Positions 5,275-33,878 of a stretch of 64,000 nt of DNA are shown one piece after another. The stretch covers positions 1 to 64,000 of the forward strand of contig JAAUOU010000011.1 of NCBI GenBank assembly GCA_012034765.1. The letters run 5' to 3'. The notes beneath the pieces are model-generated. The model had not been told where the DNA came from and did no database searches. It worked only from the letters and a program-made list of their open reading frames with translations. The position numbers were made by a program, and so were the translations under genes. Origin of the DNA: Pleurocapsaceae cyanobacterium CSU_1_1. Its GTDB lineage: Bacteria > Cyanobacteriota > Cyanobacteriia > Cyanobacteriales > Xenococcaceae. How positions within the stretch are numbered: position 1 is the first letter of the stretch; the number at the start of each line of letters is the position of its first letter.

Positions 5275-6606
5275 ATGTTGACTATGAATTATACCTATCG
5301 AATTTATCCAACTACCGACCAGCAAGTTATCATGCTTGAATGGTTGGAAACTTGTCGCCGACTTTATAATCGTTGTTTGCGAGATTTGAAGGATTGGATT
5401 AATTCGAGAAAATGTAGTTTGTACTCTTGCTCCTTGAATCGGGAATATATTATTTCTCCCGACATTTCTTTTCCTAGCTATTTGGAGCAGAAAAGACAAC
5501 TTACCCAGTGGAAAAAAACTAATTCGCACTATCAAGCTGTTCACTCGCAAGTAACTCAAGACTGTGTGAAACGGCTGCATAACACCTGGGAAGCGTTCAA
5601 ATCTAAAAAATTTGGATTTCCACGCTTTAAAAAGTACGGCAGATATCAATCTTTTCTGTTTCCACAGTTTAAGGAAAATCCAATTACCAACGGAAAAATC
5701 AAGCTTCCTAAAATTGGGGAGGTTGAAATTAATCAACATCGTCCAATCCCAGAAGGTTTTAATGTCAAAGGAGTAAGGATAGCATCCAGAGCAAGAGGAA
5801 CTATTTGGTATGCCGTAGTTACTATCCAGTGCGATGTTAATGTTCCCAACCTTATTCCGTTTGGGCGTGGAATTGGAATTGATATTGGATTGGAATCTTT
5901 TTTGGTGACTAGCGATAATCTCAGGATTGAACCTGCTAGATTTTTCCGAGATCTGCAAAGTAGGCTTAAAGTGCTGCAACGCAGAGCATCTCGCAAAAAG
6001 AAGGGCAGTAAAAACTGGGAGAGCGCACAACTTAAAGTTGCTCGACTTCACCATCAAATAACCAACACTCGAAAAAACTTTCACTTTCAAACAAGCCATC
6101 TTTTGTGTGATCAAGCGGACATGATTTTTGTTGAAGATATCAACTTTAAAATGACTGCTAGAGGATTTCTGGGCAAGCAAATGCTTGATGGTGGTTTCGG
6201 GCAATTCCGAAATTTGCTTTCTTGGGTATGTTGGAAGCGTGGAAAATATTTCCAAGCAGTTGACCATAAATACACCTCGCAAATTTGCCCCGAATGCAAT
6301 ACTCACACAGGAAAAAAGGAACTCAGTGAGCGAGTCCATAATTGTCCTGAATGTGGGTATCGAACTACAAGAGATCATGCTGGTGGAAGAGTGATTTTAA
6401 ATCGAGGATTGGAAAGTATTGCTAAGGCGCGTTTTGAGTGGGAAGCTTCCCACTCAAAAGCCGCCGCTAGTACCGACGGACTGTCGGGGAAAGAAATTGC
6501 CTGTCAAGTCGTACTGTCGGGGGTGTCATGCCTAGACAAGTGGCGTTTTGGGACAGGAATATCCAGCTCGCGAGGATTGGAAGCCAGCACTCTATCCGAA
6601 GGATGA
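5275..6606 (+). CDS. tnpB: TnpB, IS200/IS605-family RNA-guided nuclease
   Basis: This 443-residue protein has the OrfB_IS605 architecture: an N-terminal helix-turn-helix region (NYTYRIYPT...), a central beta domain, and a split RuvC nuclease. The catalytic acids are visible: D203 in GIDIGL, E287 in VEDIN and D367 in TTRDHAGG. A zinc knuckle is formed by C338, C341, C357 and C360. TnpB uses a guide RNA made from the transposon right end to cut DNA. The third RuvC motif is TRDH rather than the usual DRDxNA, and the C-terminal about 60 residues are encoded by a repeat-rich stretch containing a 28-bp perfect palindrome. Two ATGs (5275 and 5284) can start it. No TnpA lies nearby. Confidence 0.93.
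   Translation: MLTMNYTYRIYPTTDQQVIMLEWLETCRRLYNRCLRDLKDWINSRKCSLYSCSLNREYIISPDISFPSYLEQKRQLTQWKKTNSHYQAVHSQVTQDCVKRLHNTWEAFKSKKFGFPRFKKYGRYQSFLFPQFKENPITNGKIKLPKIGEVEINQHRPIPEGFNVKGVRIASRARGTIWYAVVTIQCDVNVPNLIPFGRGIGIDIGLESFLVTSDNLRIEPARFFRDLQSRLKVLQRRASRKKKGSKNWESAQLKVARLHHQITNTRKNFHFQTSHLLCDQADMIFVEDINFKMTARGFLGKQMLDGGFGQFRNLLSWVCWKRGKYFQAVDHKYTSQICPECNTHTGKKELSERVHNCPECGYRTTRDHAGGRVILNRGLESIAKARFEWEASHSKAAASTDGLSGKEIACQVVLSGVSCLDKWRFGTGISSSRGLEASTLSEG
6432..6459. repeat. 28-bp perfect palindrome inside the tnpB 3' end
   Basis: TTTTGAGTGGGAAG is followed immediately by its exact reverse complement. The same palindrome core, with the same flanking GCG and GCC bases, recurs degenerately at 18717-18758 and 23630-23671 in the opposite orientation. 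It probably forms the hairpin of the element end or of its guide RNA. Confidence 0.9.
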
Positions 6607-14091: not shown

Positions 14092-15318
14092 CTAGAACAA
14101 TGTTAGTTGTATAGGGTTGGTTAACGCTTCACCGCAAACTGCAAGCTTCGCTTGACTGACACTCGCTCCACGTTCGTTTTTATATTGGTCGGATTGTCCA
14201 CCCGCCCATCTACTCAAGTTAATTGAGGCGTTTAGATCTCTGTCGTGTGTAGTATTACAAAATAGACACTGCCACTGCCTCACATCAAGTTCTTTTTTGC
14301 CTCCTGATTTGCCACAGCAGGAGCAAATTTGTGAACTTGGATACCAACGATCTACGATAGTTAAATCTCTACCGTACTTATCGCATTTGGCTTCTAACAT
14401 GGTCTTAAACTTGCTCCACCCAGCATCAGATATTGCTCGACTGAGCTTACGGTTTTTAACCATGCCAGCTACGTTTAGGTCTTCTACTGCCAGCGCTTGG
14501 TTTTCGCGTACTAAGCGAGTAGTTAACTTGTGCAGAAAATCTGTCCTAGCATCTTTTACCTTGACGTGAAGTTTTGCTAGTCTTAACTTACGTTTTTTCC
14601 TCCGATTAGAATCACGTTTAGCCTTAGCTAGTCTACGATTGGCTAGCTTGATTTTCTTCAACATTTTCTTGTGTAACCGTGGGTTCTCAATCTTTTCGCC
14701 AGTACTAAGAATGGCAAAATGAGTTAAACCCAAATCAATTCCACAACTATTACTAGTTTGTGGTCCTAAAGGATACCGCTCCGCATATGCTATTTGTTCT
14801 GGTATCTCGACCACAAAAGAAGCAAAATACCTACCAGTCGTATCTTTAATTACTGTGACGCTAGTTGGTTGGCTAGGCAATGGTCTTGAAAAAACAACTT
14901 TAACATGACCAATTTTAGCCAAGTAAACTGACTGAGAGTGTACCGAAAAAGCATTAGAAGCAAATCTAATTGCCTGTCTACTATGCTTCTTTTTTGGTTT
15001 TGGTCTACCTACCGCTTTTCCTTTTCTACCTCCTTTTAAGCTAGAAAAGTAGTTATCCCAAGCTTGTTGTAAATCTCTTAAAGATTGTTGCAAAACTACG
15101 GAAGATACTTCAGACAACCATGAGCGTTCTTCAGTTTTCTTAGCTTGAGTAATCACTAAGTTACTGATTTTAGTTGGTCTGTCTAACTTATTTCTCTCAG
15201 CATTTTTGTACAACCACCAGGCATCATTCCAAACAACACGACTCGAACCAAAAGCTTTTGCTAGTGGCGTTAGTTGTGATTGCTTAGGGTAAATGCGGTA
15301 GTTATATCTGGCTTTCAT
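14092..15318 (-). CDS. tnpB: TnpB, IS200/IS605-family RNA-guided nuclease
   Basis: This 408-residue protein has the full TnpB layout: N-terminal HTH (RYNYRIYPKQSQ), a basic linker, RuvC motifs with D195 in GIDLGLTHF, E279 in VEDLNV and D361 in DRDLNAS, and a zinc knuckle CSCC...CLFC. All catalytic residues are present, so it is expected to be an active guide-RNA-directed nuclease, unlike the more divergent copy at 5275. It is transcribed away from tnpA. Its 3' end overlaps the element end where the guide RNA would be encoded. Confidence 0.95.
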   Translation of the reverse strand: MKARYNYRIYPKQSQLTPLAKAFGSSRVVWNDAWWLYKNAERNKLDRPTKISNLVITQAKKTEERSWLSEVSSVVLQQSLRDLQQAWDNYFSSLKGGRKGKAVGRPKPKKKHSRQAIRFASNAFSVHSQSVYLAKIGHVKVVFSRPLPSQPTSVTVIKDTTGRYFASFVVEIPEQIAYAERYPLGPQTSNSCGIDLGLTHFAILSTGEKIENPRLHKKMLKKIKLANRRLAKAKRDSNRRKKRKLRLAKLHVKVKDARTDFLHKLTTRLVRENQALAVEDLNVAGMVKNRKLSRAISDAGWSKFKTMLEAKCDKYGRDLTIVDRWYPSSQICSCCGKSGGKKELDVRQWQCLFCNTTHDRDLNASINLSRWAGGQSDQYKNERGASVSQAKLAVCGEALTNPIQLTLF

Positions 15319-27581: not shown

Positions 27582-29282
27582 TTACCAAAAAGTCTTAATC
27601 TCAACTTTTTGTTTGGCAATATTACAAGTTGCTTTGATTACATTAAGTAAATCGGTTTGGTTATCGCTGTCTGCATTAATTTCTAGCAAGCCGACACTGG
27701 TATTAATCGGATATTCATCACCCTGCCACTGAAATGAAAATTCATTTAAATCTTCTCGTAGTTTGTTAATTGATATAGATGCTTGGTCTAAGGAACAGTT
27801 AAGTACTAATGTGACCAATTCGCGATCGCTTAGACGAGCCACATAATCTGATGATAAATGCAACTTAATTTTAGCTGCAATCTGATACATCAAAATTTCA
27901 CTAATTCGAGAATCTTGTTGTAAGTCAGAAGTTGCTTCTGAGTTAAAATCTATCGTTAAATCGTCAATAACCAAACAGCAGATGGCATGATGGTAATCGT
28001 TTTGAGCAATCTGTTCTAAAGTCAATTCCAAGATTTCTGCTAATTCTGGCTCACTTAACAAGAAAATCGTATCTTGACTACTATGATTTGATGAATGCTC
28101 TGAATTGACTAAAATTTGATTTAAATCATAAAGCTGACGAATTATAATCAATACTTCCGCCATCCCAATGGAACTAATTCTTGCTTCGTAATATTGTCGC
28201 CCACCATTATCTAAAGGTAGATCAAAGCGGTGTGAATGAGTTAAACCAGATTTTAAAGATAGTTGAGCATACTTGATAAACCGCAAGGCTATTTTAGGAT
28301 CTAAAAACTCATTAATATGTTTGTTAATGATTTCTCCTGTGATTATAAACGAGTTAGCTTCTTTGGCTGGAATATAGCCTAAACAAATACCGCCTTCGGT
28401 TATCCGCAACATAGAATCAGGAATAGCTCTGAGTATAGTCGCGCTTTCACTTTCAGAGTCTTCAAGTTGAGGCTGAATTTCTTGCTGTCTTTGCCAATCT
28501 TGAATTAGTCGTTCGGCTATAAACAAAGCAGGAAGAGTGAAGACAATTACAACAATTAATAATGAAAGTAATATTGTTGATGTTGCCAAAGAAAGAATAA
28601 CTAGAAAAATTAAGGAGAAAATTATAATTACGTTACGGATTTTTTTGCGCAGCAGTGCAATATTATTTAATAAAGTCAGAGGAGATTCAAATGTTTGTTC
28701 AACTGGAATTAAAGAAGAAACCAGTTCATTTTGAGGTAATGATGTTTTAGCAGTAATTAAACTCGTTTCCACACCTATGATAGATAATAAAATTAAGCTA
28801 AAACCAGTTACTAATGTATAAGAGATTCCGAGAATCGTTGTCAATGGAGTTCCTGTGTGTAGAGACAAAAATATTGCTGTTTGTTGACTAGTTAGATCTA
28901 ACCAATCTGTTCCCAAACGATAAGCCACACCAGTTTCTACACAAACACCTAAAGGAAAAACTACCATTAAAGCCACGATTTTGTAGATATTAACGGCAAG
29001 AGATTTAACTCTTTTAGATATGAGAATATCTCTAACTTTAATAAGAATATTTAAACCAATTATCAGCACTCCTAAGCCTAGAAGTAAAACATAATAAGGA
29101 GTTATCTTTTCACCTAAAAACTTGCCTTGATGAATTACCAAGAGAGCATCGATTACCACTGTGGGCAAAATTCCTAGACGATTACCTAAGCCTAAAATTA
29201 TTCCTGTTAATGCGGTTATTAACAGGGGAAACAAAAGTACTGGAGCAATCTGGAGGTTAAGTTTGCGAAATACTCTATTCAT
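27582..29282 (-). CDS. PepSY-like membrane protein with PAS and degenerate GGDEF domains
   Basis: This 566-residue protein starts with two PepSY-type membrane blocks: residues about 10-80 (APVLLFPLLITALTGIILGL and VIHQGKFLGEKITPYYVLLL), then about 95-185. Two more helices follow at about 215-255. A PAS-like region spans about 285-385. The last about 170 residues follow the GGDEF fold (AICCLVIDDL..., SVGLLEIN..., IAKQK), but the active-site turn reads RLSDREL where GGDEF is expected. It is therefore unlikely to make cyclic di-GMP and may act as a binding or scaffold domain. PepSY proteins often handle metals or redox; the signal is unknown. Confidence 0.8.
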   Translation of the reverse strand: MNRVFRKLNLQIAPVLLFPLLITALTGIILGLGNRLGILPTVVIDALLVIHQGKFLGEKITPYYVLLLGLGVLIIGLNILIKVRDILISKRVKSLAVNIYKIVALMVVFPLGVCVETGVAYRLGTDWLDLTSQQTAIFLSLHTGTPLTTILGISYTLVTGFSLILLSIIGVETSLITAKTSLPQNELVSSLIPVEQTFESPLTLLNNIALLRKKIRNVIIIFSLIFLVILSLATSTILLSLLIVVIVFTLPALFIAERLIQDWQRQQEIQPQLEDSESESATILRAIPDSMLRITEGGICLGYIPAKEANSFIITGEIINKHINEFLDPKIALRFIKYAQLSLKSGLTHSHRFDLPLDNGGRQYYEARISSIGMAEVLIIIRQLYDLNQILVNSEHSSNHSSQDTIFLLSEPELAEILELTLEQIAQNDYHHAICCLVIDDLTIDFNSEATSDLQQDSRISEILMYQIAAKIKLHLSSDYVARLSDRELVTLVLNCSLDQASISINKLREDLNEFSFQWQGDEYPINTSVGLLEINADSDNQTDLLNVIKATCNIAKQKVEIKTFW

Positions 29283-30131
29283 GTTTGGGTATGTATTTTG
29301 ATTAGTAGAAAAACTTTCTGTAGCTTTTTTTCAAAAAAGCCTAAAAACAAAAGCGATTTTTAATTAAAATTAATAAATATTAATATTTAATAGATTATGG
29401 GCGGTCGCTTACAACACAACCTCTACACACCTAATATTTGAAATATGAACAGAATTTTGTTAAGACTATACTGTTTTTTTTACGCAATATTTTAGAAGAT
29501 AACTATTAATTATCTTTTAAAGCTATGCTTTAAACTCCCAGATTCAATCTAGTTTCAAATAACCATTGAGTTTTGGATAATTACTTGAAATTACTACTCA
29601 ACTAAAACATATTTGTGTGTTAGTTAATTTTTTACGTAAATTTACTGACAGTTATGCTATAAATATAAACAACACAAGAAATACTAACTATGGTAATAAC
29701 TAATGTCAAGATTACTTCAGTAAATTCTCCTAGTTTTCTCTCGTGTCTGTTAAATTTGGAACATGCTACCAAAACAAAACTTACTGTAAGTAATCACAAT
29801 AATACAAAATCTCGTCAATTGCTAGAAATAATTATGCAATTTTTGCATTAATTTAATGATCGATTTAATCTAGTTGAATGCTCAACATTTAAGCATAACC
29901 TAATGTCTATTATGCTGACGTAACTGGTTATACAGTCTCTTATTTTTTGAATATATTTGCTTTATCTATGTTGAAATTACTTGAGCAATTTTACTTAATA
30001 CCTGAAACTAATTAAAACTAGATATTTAGATATTTTAGTCAGCTTCAGAAATAGTGAAAGTAGAAATAGAAACTATGTTTGCTCAATCTCAATAGTTACT
30101 AGTTGTTTGATATTTACTTGGTGTATTGTTA
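29283..30131. other. long AT-rich intergenic region
   Basis: About 850 bp between divergent genes. It holds one small candidate ORF (29690-29851). Otherwise it is AT-rich with no clear RNA, repeat or terminator. It presumably contains the promoter of the large fusion gene. Confidence 0.4.
29690..29851 (+). CDS. possible small protein, 53 residues
   Basis: An ATG-initiated frame coding for MVITNVKITSVNSPSFLSCL and ending in EIIMQFLH. It has no good ribosome site and no recognised family. Support is only an open frame in AT-rich DNA. Confidence 0.25.
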   Translation: MVITNVKITSVNSPSFLSCLLNLEHATKTKLTVSNHNNTKSRQLLEIIMQFLH

Positions 30132-33100
30132 ATGAAAAATATCTTTCCCGAAATAATTGCTATTTGTGTAGTGGCATTTATAGGCATTGAAAATCCAAAC
30201 TTACAGCTGGTTTTTTCACTTTACTGGGGAACTGCTCTGACACTCAGGCTTGTTTGGAATAGCGCTATCCTAATTCATGAGTTAGGTCATGCTGTAGCTA
30301 TATCTGCTATTGATCGAGATAGACAATCAGCTTTAAGAATCAATAACATTAGTGATCTTCTCAAAGCTGGAAATAACCCAAATACATTAAGCTCATTGAT
30401 TCCTGGTGCGCCAATTTTCATCCCATTTATACCAGGAATAAAACATGACGATTATCCTTCAATACCAGCAGGAGATGCAGTTCCTTGGCGGATACGGTTA
30501 AAAGCCATAGCGGGCATCTCTTTTAATTTACTTGCTGCTGCGATCGCTTTTGTAGTTTGTAGTAATAATCTTTCTCTTCCCTATTTTTTTAGACTTTTTG
30601 GTCAAGTTTTTACCGTTGCCAATTTATTAATTGCTTTTTGTTCTTGGACAGACTTTTATGCCTTGGCTACAGGAATAGGTGAAAATTTTTATTGTGGTAA
30701 TTTTGGCTTTATTTGTCAACGTCGAAAAGGTGATCAAGATCTGCTTTTGTCTGAAAGGATGACAAACATTTATTATCAAATGGGGCGAGAAACGGAGATA
30801 CGCGGAGAACAAGCTGGTGGGGGATTGGTAGTAGCCCAAAACCAAGACAAGCAAATTGTTTTTGTCGGTGATAAAATTGTTAATCGTAAACGAGATAATC
30901 TGACTAATTCTCTTGAGAAAACTTTCGCTTTGGTTCGACAAAAATCTCAAAACAATGGTATTGCCCCTTTAGAAACGACAACTACGGGAGTATGGCATTA
31001 TCGGTTTGGCACTAGTGGCCCTCCCGCAATCATAGAAACTCATTGGCATGAATGGATGAGCGCTAGGGTTGAAAGAGTTTGGGAATTTACAGAAGGTCAA
31101 TGGGTTTGCCGAGACAAAAATATTAATCATCGTATTACTCACAATGGAGATTTTGATGCCTGGACGCTATATAACCAAGAGGTATCTAATGAGGCGTTGG
31201 GATTGTGGTTAGAGCGGGCATTGCATACATATAATTATGCCTTGGGAGATTCCCCCAAAATTGCGGGAATGATCGATCTTTTGGTAACCAAAGGAATGTG
31301 GTATGCTTCGGTGAGATTAGCGTATCATTTGGCGGGTGCTGATTCCATCGAATCCTCCTTTGATGGACAAACTCCCCATCGAGATGCTCCTAATACTGCT
31401 GCAACAATCTTAAAACTCAGTAACTGGGCAAAAGTATTTGAAAATACTTTTATGCTGTACCGTAAATTATTGGCAGCACCCGATTCTCCTGCCTGTAACC
31501 AGTACTTGTACCGCTTAGAACAAGATGTGCTACAGGTAATTGCCAAGGACGATATGATTGGTCAATGGTCGTGGCAAAAAAGAGTCAATTTTGTGAGAAC
31601 TGCAATTCATGCTTTCTTCTATAACGATCTCAATCTAGCCACTAAAACGTTCATGGCTGGAGCGATTGGCACTTTTGGTTTAGTTGTCGCCTCTACATTA
31701 GAAAAAGAACGACTAGTAATCGGCGCAAAAGGGCAGCCAATGTCAATTGGCTTTAATAAGCAAGATAATTATATGGTTTATGCCTCCGAACCAGCTGCTG
31801 TTGATGCCGTGCTTTTAAATCTTCCACAATCTCTTCGTTTAGATTTAAACCAAAAAGAAGGAGAGATTGCCTTGGTGAGTGCTAGCGAAATCACCATCTA
31901 TTCTCTGGAAAAAGGCGAAGAATTAAATTATTTGCAACTAGAAGATCGATGGATTTCTATGGAAAATCATCCTTATTTACCTCATGTCAAATATCCTACT
32001 TGCAATACCCAAGACCCGATTGCTAGCGATAATCAAGAAATTCCCGCTATTTTTGAAGAAATAAAATTAGATTGGAAAAATCCTGACTCTCTTAATTGTC
32101 AAAGTGCAGATTATTTAGTTCAACTATTAAGCGAAAAAGCTCGTAACTTCGATCAGCAAAGGCAAAAAATGCTGAGAGCAGGATTATCTAAGTTGAGTAG
32201 ACAATTGCCCACAGTTGATTTGCTAATTATTGGTGTGGAAAATAGCCTTTGGCTAGGAGAGAGATTTTGCCAAGATTTAAGAATTATTTTTCCCTGGCTG
32301 AATGTTCGTAGTGTTTCCTCTAATCAAATTTTGCAGCAATTAAAACATAATTTTGGCAGTTTACAATTGGGGAAAGATTCAATCGTCTTGGCTGTTACTC
32401 AATCAGGTCAGACCTTTCCTACTATTCAGGCAATAAATGCTTTAGATCAGCTATATCATCAAGGAGAAATCAAGGAGCTTTTTCTTTTAACTGGAGAATT
32501 GGGCAGTTTTTTGGGTTCGCCTGTAATTAAAGTCAAGGAAGCTGAACTGGAAAAGCGTCATCACAAAATTTTTGTTAATGGTAGTGGACGCAGAACATCA
32601 GAGCCAGCAACAGTTGCTGTGGCAGCAGCCCAGCAGACTTTTACTGAGTTGTTATTGTATTTAGCTAAGAATATTAAGCAAGCTTTGCCCAATTCAACAC
32701 CGCCTTTTGGCATGACTTTAACATCCCAAAGCATTGCCGTGTTAGAAAACATGAAGGATGACTTTGTTGAGGTCAGTGTAGTGCAAATTATGGGAGCAAC
32801 CCCAACAGGGAAAAAAATCGATTCTTCAATTGAAAAAGAACTAATTAAAAGTGGTCGTAAGTGGGCTTGGCATATTATTGAAACTCCTACTGCCTGGGCA
32901 ATACACGCTTTATATATTTTAATCACTGTGGGCTGGGCAATTCCCTTTGGCTATACAATCCCTTTAGCAAAAACACTCTTGGCAAGCGTACTTTGGCTAC
33001 TCCCAATACCTCAAGATTCCTTTATTCTTCAGCTGATTAATTCTGTTGTCACTTTAATCGATATCGGAATTTATATTTTTGGATCGTGGTTATGGACTCT

Positions 33101-33878
33101 AGGAATACGTTACGTTCAGGGTAGAGAGCTACTAGCCAGAATTGGTAAGAGAAGCTTGGTTATTGGCGATGTTCCCTGGGTAAATCAGCTTCTGAAGAAC
33201 TATGTCAGCAAATTGTTTTCTCTCAGCTATGGCATCGCCTCTCTTGATGTGCATGGAGCTAATCCAGAGGACGATTTGTTACACGATTTTGGACATCGAG
33301 TTGTTAGAGGCACTTTAATGTTTCTAGGCGTACCTGATGGGAGAAAAAGCGATAAGCTCAAACATCAAGAAAATGCTGTAATTATGACGGGGAAACAAGC
33401 TGATGGTGTTCGAAATATTGATGTTGGGCCAGAAGTAGTGGTGATGGGGTCTAATCCTGAAATAGCTCATAAAGGTTTTACCAACGCAATTATTCTCAAT
33501 AGCGATGATGAGCATTTCCATCTGCGTAATGATTTTGTCTACTTCCAAAGCGAACATAGTAAAGAGCAAAAGGCTTTAATCGAAGAGTTAAGAGAATCAC
33601 GCTTTACTGCATTTGAACGACTGTTGGCAAGCTATGTTTTCTTTTGGGCATTGGCGAAGAAAGTGGCTTCTTTCCCCATCTTGGGCTATGAGCATTGGAA
33701 ATCTCAAAGCCGAACTAAGATTATGACTACTGCTGCACCAGTTTCAGGAGTGATCCAATCCCATGCAGTCACTAAAGCAAACCAAGTCATGCAGTCACTA
33801 ACTCGCCTCCAGTCAATAGCAGTAGACAATAGCAGAGATCAACAAAATAATGAACCAAATTCTGAAGAACAAGCCTAA
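30132..33878 (+). CDS. fusion of metalloprotease-like membrane domain, class II glutamine amidotransferase, SIS domain and membrane C-terminus
   Basis: This is a 1248-residue protein (ATG 30132; TTG 30126 is upstream). Residues 1-185 are membrane helices with the zinc motif HELGH (49-53), an AGISFNLLAAA helix (127-137) and Asp174, arranged as in M50 site-2 proteases. At residue 188 comes CGNFGFIC, equal to the N-terminal CGxxG nucleophile of GlmS-like amidotransferases. RGEQAGGGLVV (224-234), RFGTSGPP (291-298) and HNGD (337-340) complete that domain, which ends near 600. A SIS domain follows (about 690-850: AVTQSGQT, SEPATVAVAAAQ). Then come two or three helices (915-990) and a basic cytoplasmic tail domain of unknown type. 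The amidotransferase Cys must be N-terminal to work, so cleavage is implied. Substrate is unknown; an amino-sugar phosphate is likely. Confidence 0.85.
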   Translation: MKNIFPEIIAICVVAFIGIENPNLQLVFSLYWGTALTLRLVWNSAILIHELGHAVAISAIDRDRQSALRINNISDLLKAGNNPNTLSSLIPGAPIFIPFIPGIKHDDYPSIPAGDAVPWRIRLKAIAGISFNLLAAAIAFVVCSNNLSLPYFFRLFGQVFTVANLLIAFCSWTDFYALATGIGENFYCGNFGFICQRRKGDQDLLLSERMTNIYYQMGRETEIRGEQAGGGLVVAQNQDKQIVFVGDKIVNRKRDNLTNSLEKTFALVRQKSQNNGIAPLETTTTGVWHYRFGTSGPPAIIETHWHEWMSARVERVWEFTEGQWVCRDKNINHRITHNGDFDAWTLYNQEVSNEALGLWLERALHTYNYALGDSPKIAGMIDLLVTKGMWYASVRLAYHLAGADSIESSFDGQTPHRDAPNTAATILKLSNWAKVFENTFMLYRKLLAAPDSPACNQYLYRLEQDVLQVIAKDDMIGQWSWQKRVNFVRTAIHAFFYNDLNLATKTFMAGAIGTFGLVVASTLEKERLVIGAKGQPMSIGFNKQDNYMVYASEPAAVDAVLLNLPQSLRLDLNQKEGEIALVSASEITIYSLEKGEELNYLQLEDRWISMENHPYLPHVKYPTCNTQDPIASDNQEIPAIFEEIKLDWKNPDSLNCQSADYLVQLLSEKARNFDQQRQKMLRAGLSKLSRQLPTVDLLIIGVENSLWLGERFCQDLRIIFPWLNVRSVSSNQILQQLKHNFGSLQLGKDSIVLAVTQSGQTFPTIQAINALDQLYHQGEIKELFLLTGELGSFLGSPVIKVKEAELEKRHHKIFVNGSGRRTSEPATVAVAAAQQTFTELLLYLAKNIKQALPNSTPPFGMTLTSQSIAVLENMKDDFVEVSVVQIMGATPTGKKIDSSIEKELIKSGRKWAWHIIETPTAWAIHALYILITVGWAIPFGYTIPLAKTLLASVLWLLPIPQDSFILQLINSVVTLIDIGIYIFGSWLWTLGIRYVQGRELLARIGKRSLVIGDVPWVNQLLKNYVSKLFSLSYGIASLDVHGANPEDDLLHDFGHRVVRGTLMFLGVPDGRKSDKLKHQENAVIMTGKQADGVRNIDVGPEVVVMGSNPEIAHKGFTNAIILNSDDEHFHLRNDFVYFQSEHSKEQKALIEELRESRFTAFERLLASYVFFWALAKKVASFPILGYEHWKSQSRTKIMTTAAPVSGVIQSHAVTKANQVMQSLTRLQSIAVDNSRDQQNNEPNSEEQA

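Follow-up and report, generated by a model that had tools for sequence, protein, structure and literature searches.

Class II glutamine amidotransferases can be made with residues ahead of their nucleophilic Cys, and passages in two papers describe such N-terminal propeptides as being shed autocatalytically (PMC7056826, PMC9140057). In PurF-type amidophosphoribosyltransferase, the glutaminase is matured by cleavage at that point, as part of the first paper describes (PMC7056826), and a passage in the second states that in family C44 a few residues precede the N-terminal Cys and are autocatalytically cleaved (PMC9140057). The gene considered here encodes a protein in which the Cys lies at residue 188, behind a whole membrane domain. 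It occupies positions 30132 to 33878 on the forward strand of a 64,000-nucleotide stretch of contig JAAUOU010000011.1 from Pleurocapsaceae cyanobacterium CSU_1_1 (assembly GCA_012034765.1), hereafter the window. A sequence-only reading of the window had proposed that a site-2-protease-like membrane domain cuts the chain before Cys188 and thereby releases and switches on a GlmS-like enzyme. The best explanation, in which we place a little more than even confidence, is that the gene encodes a membrane-associated GlmS-like precursor whose N-terminal membrane domain (N-domain) is removed before Cys188 by self-cleavage of the N-terminal nucleophile (Ntn) type, and not by the HELGH motif of that domain.

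Compared to GlmS and GFAT, the window protein shares the predicted fold, the order of a glutaminase followed by two SIS lobes, and the TQSGQT motif, and its standalone homologues start with Met-Cys as the ordinary GlmS of the same cell does. Unlike GlmS and GFAT, it carries an N-terminal membrane domain, additional glutaminase residues, and hydrophobic helices between the SIS lobes; unlike the GlmS equivalog, it falls below the NCBIfam cut-offs and has Ser at the position matched by eye to the isomerase Glu. Compared to the PurF-type enzymes, it has a 187-residue membrane domain in place of a short propeptide, and SIS lobes in place of a phosphoribosyltransferase as synthase. The N-domain resembles site-2 (M50) proteases in being a membrane domain with an HxxGH motif, a downstream (A/G)G-x-x-F-N motif, and, close to the last helix, an Asp. 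It differs from them in that Gly replaces the motif Glu in nearly all fused homologues, the LDG motif is absent, and no profile match is significant; HExxH and the Asp of LDG are the zinc and activity motifs of these proteases according to a passage in PMC10978774. The pseudoprotease EGY3 lacks the zinc motif, whereas both His residues are kept in the N-domains of the window family. No description of such a fusion was found in the open-access literature, as judged by titles and abstract openings.

A GlmS-like enzyme with an internal Cys

The open reading frame (ORF) from 30132 to 33878 is a single intact frame of 1248 amino acids counted from its ATG, with a TTG two codons 5′ of this ATG, and the gene is present in a single copy in its own assembly. 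The joining of three motifs in one polypeptide, as first proposed, was confirmed in this frame: HELGH occupies residues 49–53, CGNFG residues 188–192, and TQSGQT residues 756–761. Homologues support the layout of the whole gene, in which all parts lie on the forward strand. The N-domain, a candidate pro-domain of residues 1–187 (30132–30692), is followed by the class II glutaminase domain from residue 188 to approximately 612 (30693–31967) and by two SIS lobes at residues ~625–1186 (32004–33689, with TQSGQT at 32397–32414), between which a hydrophobic helical insert is found at residues ~915–990 (32874–33101).

Two AlphaFold models built from family alignments, one of residues 1–632 and one of residues 188–1248, each had a mean predicted local distance difference test score (pLDDT) of 82. 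In the first model, residues 188–623 matched residues 2–318 of GFAT-1 with Z 25.2 and a root-mean-square deviation (rmsd) of 2.7 over 265 aligned residues, the highest Z for the glutaminase, and the GlmS glutaminase 1xff (residues 1–238) matched with Z 24.6; the window domain is approximately 185 residues longer than this 238-residue E. coli domain. Matches to PurF-type enzymes reached Z 17.9–20.4. Cys188 superposes on residue 1 or 2 of GFAT-1, GlmS, the PurF proteins of E. coli and B. subtilis, EgtC, AsnB, and Synechocystis GltS, in support of the proposed GlmS-like class II amidotransferase whose nucleophile lies inside the chain. It also superposes on residue 87 of Arabidopsis GPRAT2 (6lbp), which is the known mature N-terminus of that enzyme according to a passage in PMC7056826. 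In the second model, the part from Cys188 onward matched GFAT-1 with Z 30.2 and rmsd 4.4 over 607 residues, and isolated SIS domains of GlmS and GFAT matched model positions 438–999, which are residues 625–1186, with Z 28–31. On these models, the chain from Cys188 onward has every part of the GFAT/GlmS architecture.

Ordinary profiles do not reach this assignment. A Pfam search of the window protein and the A1 alignment rows gave no family at cut-off, PDB searches with single sequences and profiles gave no match above cut-off, and tblastn against a plasmid collection gave no match. The NCBIfam GlmS models TIGR01135 and NF001484 scored 22.9 bits (cut-off 381) and 19.1 bits (cut-off 418) against the window protein, and a weak match of this kind is common to 14 of the 15 A1 rows, the window included. 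A profile-profile comparison with cyanobacterial GlmS aligned 226 columns at a probability of 66%; the alignment starts within the latter half of the glutaminase and reaches into the first SIS lobe, with the order unchanged. The predicted structures and their comparison settle that both the amidotransferase and the SIS parts are genuine, at a level of similarity below ordinary profile sensitivity. Examined separately, the two halves fared differently: the enzyme half matches GlmS and GFAT by structure, and the match of the N-terminal half to M50 is not significant.

The SIS part was present as proposed, with the difference that the structure models contain two lobes rather than one and place between them a hydrophobic stretch that the sequence-only reading lacked. 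The helices of this stretch lie at ~899–996 in the model, and their Kyte-Doolittle peaks of 1.4–1.9 are modest, with a peak of 1.47 also occurring inside the soluble glutaminase. Membrane insertion of the stretch is a prediction drawn from hydropathy. It makes the proposed release of the enzyme doubtful, as the enzyme half appears to have membrane-like helices of its own.

The window genome (G000) also encodes an ordinary GlmS (contig C69, 813 bits) with the N-terminus MCGIVGYIG, which makes the window protein a divergent enzyme present in addition to it. Another GlmS-like stretch, this one partial, lies at G000:C14:94-1447, covering profile positions 1–118 and 106–434 with a stop in the latter.

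Fused and standalone homologues

Profile A1 was searched against four genome sets that overlap one another and were sampled from the class or from individual cyanobacterial orders. Matches were obtained in 25 of 388, 10 of 250, 5 of 42, and 21 of 388 genomes; some of them are fragments or weak matches at profile positions 496–601 that resemble true GlmS. In 386 genomes of the phylum, a single sequence used as query gave matches in three. The GTDB species collection was scanned with a peptide pattern, an approach that detects only close relatives and that constituted the search outside Cyanobacteria; it returned 16 loci, all cyanobacterial by title. Distinct CG[NH]FG starts were counted by the 25 residues from the Cys, with two near-identical copies in genome G515 taken as one. 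The 50 starts comprise 41 fused and 9 standalone forms; four of the fused genes (L016, L106, L119, L123) lack a part or are interrupted further downstream.

All nine homologues that lack the membrane domain have an ATG immediately before the Cys codon. Initiation at this ATG is assumed, and L069 has 30 open codons 5′ of it. In the 41 fused homologues, the residue preceding the Cys is Tyr in 27, His in 6, Asn in 5, and Cys in 3, and the one before that is Phe in 34 and Leu in 7. No start codon stands immediately before the Cys in any of the 41 fused genes. From this comparison, the predicted cut site of the window protein lies between Phe186-Tyr187 and Cys188 (30687–30695), with the pattern [F/L]-[Y/H/N/C] / Cys across the fused family.

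Both forms can occur in one genome: G879 holds one fused and two standalone copies (L070, L071, L072), with the fused and one standalone copy approximately 8.8 kb apart. A candidate for a free-standing N-domain gene, L123 in genome G1036, was rejected; L123 and L117 both end at contig ends. The match at L007, which extends to residue 155 across stop codons, may be an N-domain remnant, and a short N-domain-like match with a stop in genome G530 (L044, profile positions 3–67) may be what is left of a gene. In G515, a fused homologue (L128:4333-9941) is broken inside the amidotransferase part by a transposase gene (Pfam DDE_Tnp_1_6), and a further copy lies on contig C3.

The 41 rows of the enzyme tree, of which 32 are fused and 9 standalone, were compared over the columns from the Cys onward, and the tree needs five changes between the two states, of which at least four are forced by starred branches. 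This tree was made with a quick method and is unrooted, and L039 is a long branch in it. Grouping of all nine standalone rows in a single clade was rejected (p-AU 7e-64). A tree of 38 N-domain rows kept four of six named groups whole (f25, pleuroB, FN, and f28/f73, with pleuroA and f26 not whole). In the enzyme tree, f25 is likewise a clade, as is pleuroB without L016, which is not in the tree, and FN corresponds to the fused members of one clade; pleuroA is unresolved with L030 there, and f26 and f28/f73 were not included. When 12 genomes were searched with the N-domain profile at E 0.1, matches were found in three, all with fused copies, and in none of the other nine; G892 and G904 among the 12 have the gene in identical form and could represent a single strain, and G289 holds gene pieces only.

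The simplest account of these distributions is probably one old fusion followed by several losses of the N-domain, with the direction read from an unrooted tree. The fused L008 and L009 and the standalone L012 and L013 all stand directly behind a multi-receiver response-regulator gene (Pfam), with a gap of 6 bases from its stop to the ATG in L012 and L013; the N-domain was therefore gained or lost inside a conserved operon. A Met exactly before the same Cys after each loss is what would be expected if the mature chain has to begin with that Cys. The proposed need for a cut just before Cys188 is strengthened because standalone forms are scattered among the fused ones, each with this Met, and such a cut is very likely required for activity.

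Conservation of the glutaminase points in the same direction. C188, R291, T294, N338, G339, and D373 are all present in 37 of the 41 rows, namely 28 of 32 fused, the window included, and 9 of 9 standalone. These residues correspond by motif to the Arg, Asn-Gly, and Asp of GlmS, which we take to have glutamine-binding roles. The ratio of nonsynonymous to synonymous substitution rates (dN/dS) in nine close pairs was 0.07–0.29 for the first 600 enzyme residues and 0.18–0.45 for the last 150 N-domain residues (133 for the pair of the window and L003). Both parts are under purifying selection, which is weaker on the N-domain.

The membrane domain and the agent of the proposed cut

The model of the N-domain, in which 10-residue blocks have pLDDT 40–60, contains helices at residues 5–17, 24–60, 73–80, 83–87, 118–145, 151–170, and 172–180. 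HELGH occupies positions 30276–30290. Among the 40 fused homologues in which the motif is readable, 39 have HGxGH and the window alone has HELGH; in the 41st, L003, the motif region is lost. The second codon of the motif is GAG in the window and GGA or GGC in seven relatives compared. HExxH is absent from most homologues, and it is not conserved together with the internal CG[NH]FG, which all 41 fused homologues have. The motif expected of peptidase family M50 is thus no trait of this family, as the window protein alone has it.

An alignment of 15 N-domains (A2) has 16 invariant columns, including R39, W42, H49, G52, H53, D61, K124, N132, S171, and D174. Site-2 proteases have a middle motif of the GPxxN type, and the order of HxxGH, (A/G)G-x-x-F-N (residues 127–132), and Asp174 in the N-domain is the order of the motifs in these enzymes. 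By this order, Asp174 (30651–30653), present in 15 of 15 A2 rows, is a candidate counterpart of the LDG aspartate. In a search with Pfam M50 (PF02163), the window alone among the N-domains was matched, at a non-significant E of 1.1. When cyanobacterial M50 proteins, arranged in three groups, were compared with the N-domain by hhalign, 12–14 columns aligned and nothing beyond the surroundings of HxxGH. No M50 chain occurs among the 50 structural matches listed for model 1–632, an absence that is uninformative as the N-domain is partly poorly modelled. Because the Glu is nearly always absent, LDG is lacking, the M50 match is insignificant, and the hhalign alignments are short, the N-domain is at most a possible dead relative of a site-2 protease that keeps His49, His53, and Asp174.

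The window gene has its closest relative in Pleurocapsa sp. CCALA 161 (L003:4974-8625), with 97% identity over the compared columns. This relative has a deletion of 795 bp corresponding to window 29492–30286, that is, the upstream region and the first 51–52 codons, and a frame change near residue 1030, and it looks like a recent pseudogene; a second fused copy in the same strain, L014, is intact. Because this sister-strain copy is decaying, relaxed constraint is as likely an origin of HELGH in the window as functional re-acquisition.

In the proposed scheme, translation would yield a membrane-tethered precursor with the 187 residues of the N-domain ahead of the nucleophile. A cut between residue 187 and Cys188 would then create the free alpha-amino group that the glutaminase needs, and the likeliest cutting agent would be the amidotransferase fold itself, acting through Cys188. 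Self-cleavage is the described route for class II amidotransferases and requires no protease. The N-domain may serve as a membrane anchor, a folding aid, or a gate for the cut; it appears dispensable because the protein begins at Met-Cys in several lineages that lack it. The insert between the SIS lobes would probably keep the cleaved enzyme membrane-bound. A more specific and less likely version is a membrane-gated Ntn zymogen, in which a dead site-2-protease-like domain uses its metal ligands to sense metal, lipid, or membrane state and permits the GlmS-like part to cut itself, so that membrane amino-sugar (or related) synthesis would be switched on post-translationally.

The first suggestion, that an active metalloprotease switches the enzyme on by cutting before Cys188, would suit the intact HELGH of the window, the invariance of His49, His53, and Asp174 in A2, and the fact that Peptidase_M50 is the sole Pfam match of the window N-domain. 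This is very unlikely given the predominance of HGxGH, the few columns of the M50 comparison, the absence of the domain from the nine genomes without a fused copy, and the description of the class as self-processing. Two findings that the sequence-only reading had itself named as refuting it were both made: most homologues lack HExxH, and those lacking the membrane domain start at Met-Cys. Moreover, site-2 proteases cut inside membrane helices, and the predicted cut site lies beyond the last predicted helix of the N-domain. A separate cell protease, for example a genuine site-2 protease, might remove the membrane domain instead. The window genome has five M50 matches over the Pfam cut-off, three of which read as HExxH proteins (L080, L093, L104), the linker at residues 183–187 is predicted to be flexible (pLDDT below 50), and the Phe or Leu two residues before the Cys in 41 of 41 fused homologues is a possible recognition residue. 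A separate protease is nevertheless rather improbable: inspection by eye of the genes around the listed loci, where no profile search was made, revealed none of this kind, and self-processing is the behaviour described for class II amidotransferases in part of PMC7056826.

It is also conceivable that no cut ever occurs in the fused forms, in which the glutaminase would be silent and the protein would use free ammonia or act as a membrane-anchored sugar-phosphate sensor. Signalling genes adjoin several loci, and in four fused rows four glutaminase residues are missing together, both of which would fit. This reading is unlikely in view of the 28 fused rows that keep all six core residues, the low dN/dS of the enzyme part, and the 22 fused rows outside family code f25, which vary at only 4 of 34 tabulated positions. 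Internal translation initiation or a split gene could supply an N-terminal Cys with no cut at all, and an in-frame ATG, GTG, or TTG does lie 6–12 codons 5′ of the Cys in 14 of the 32 fused genes examined. None of the 32 has a start codon at the position before the Cys, however, and 18 have none within 12 codons of it, while the single apparent split gene (L123 with L117, G1036) ends at contig ends on both sides; this possibility is extremely slight.

Several observations weigh against self-cleavage of a GlmS-like precursor. The four fused rows with a broken glutaminase site (L018, L055, L056, L057) form a clade that lost R291, T294, N338, and D373 and kept Cys188 and the N-domain, so the glutaminase is probably dead in some fused proteins, cut or uncut. 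These proteins are perhaps a regulatory or ammonia-using offshoot, and their retained Cys fits a role in the cut and could equally be structural. Residue 1030, matched by eye (KLFSLSY against KLKEISY) beyond the profile alignment to the position of the GlmS isomerase Glu, presumably E488 of E. coli GlmS, is Ser, Ala, or Gly in the 41 rows; sugar-phosphate amination would be the presumed reaction of the family. The residue before the Cys, which may be Tyr, His, Asn, or Cys, fits no processing rule tested. L036 joins FN at a starred branch of the N-domain tree and falls outside 29 rows in the enzyme tree, on long branches. The label of a dead site-2 protease draws on three residues and a motif order, with no significant M50 match. 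Furthermore, the propeptides described in part of PMC9140057 are short, "a few amino acids", and here a whole membrane domain would have to be removed.

Gene neighbourhood and implications for the family

The neighbours suggest regulation, and none points to a substrate. In L008 and L012, a SulP-STAS-cNMP-binding gene (Pfam) precedes the response-regulator gene described above. Ser/Thr kinase genes lie upstream in L005 and L014, in the latter fused to a periplasmic-binding domain. A UDP-glycosyltransferase gene is found further downstream in L006 and upstream, on the other strand, in L011. A large WD40-repeat protein (Pfam WD40) adjoins two distant fused homologues, at L070:10431-13997 and L127:10334-13891. 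In the window itself, a divergently placed gene at 27582–29282 encodes a membrane-like protein of 566 amino acids that had no Pfam match at E 1e-5; by eye, similar genes adjoin the fused homologue in L002, L004, and L128. The window also contains two OrfB/TnpB-type IS605 genes (Pfam OrfB_IS605, Cas12f1-like_TNB), at 5275–6603 and 14095–15318.

This family, which lies below every Pfam cut-off, apparently represents a membrane-associated, uncharacterised branch within the GlmS/GFAT architecture. It also illustrates that an HExxH motif seen in a single genome can mislead, as it was found here in 1 of 40 homologues. The same deletion seems to have been repeated in evolution, so that the position of processing in fused proteins can be predicted with single-residue precision, and natural controls are available in the two kinds of copy, which even coexist in one genome (G879).

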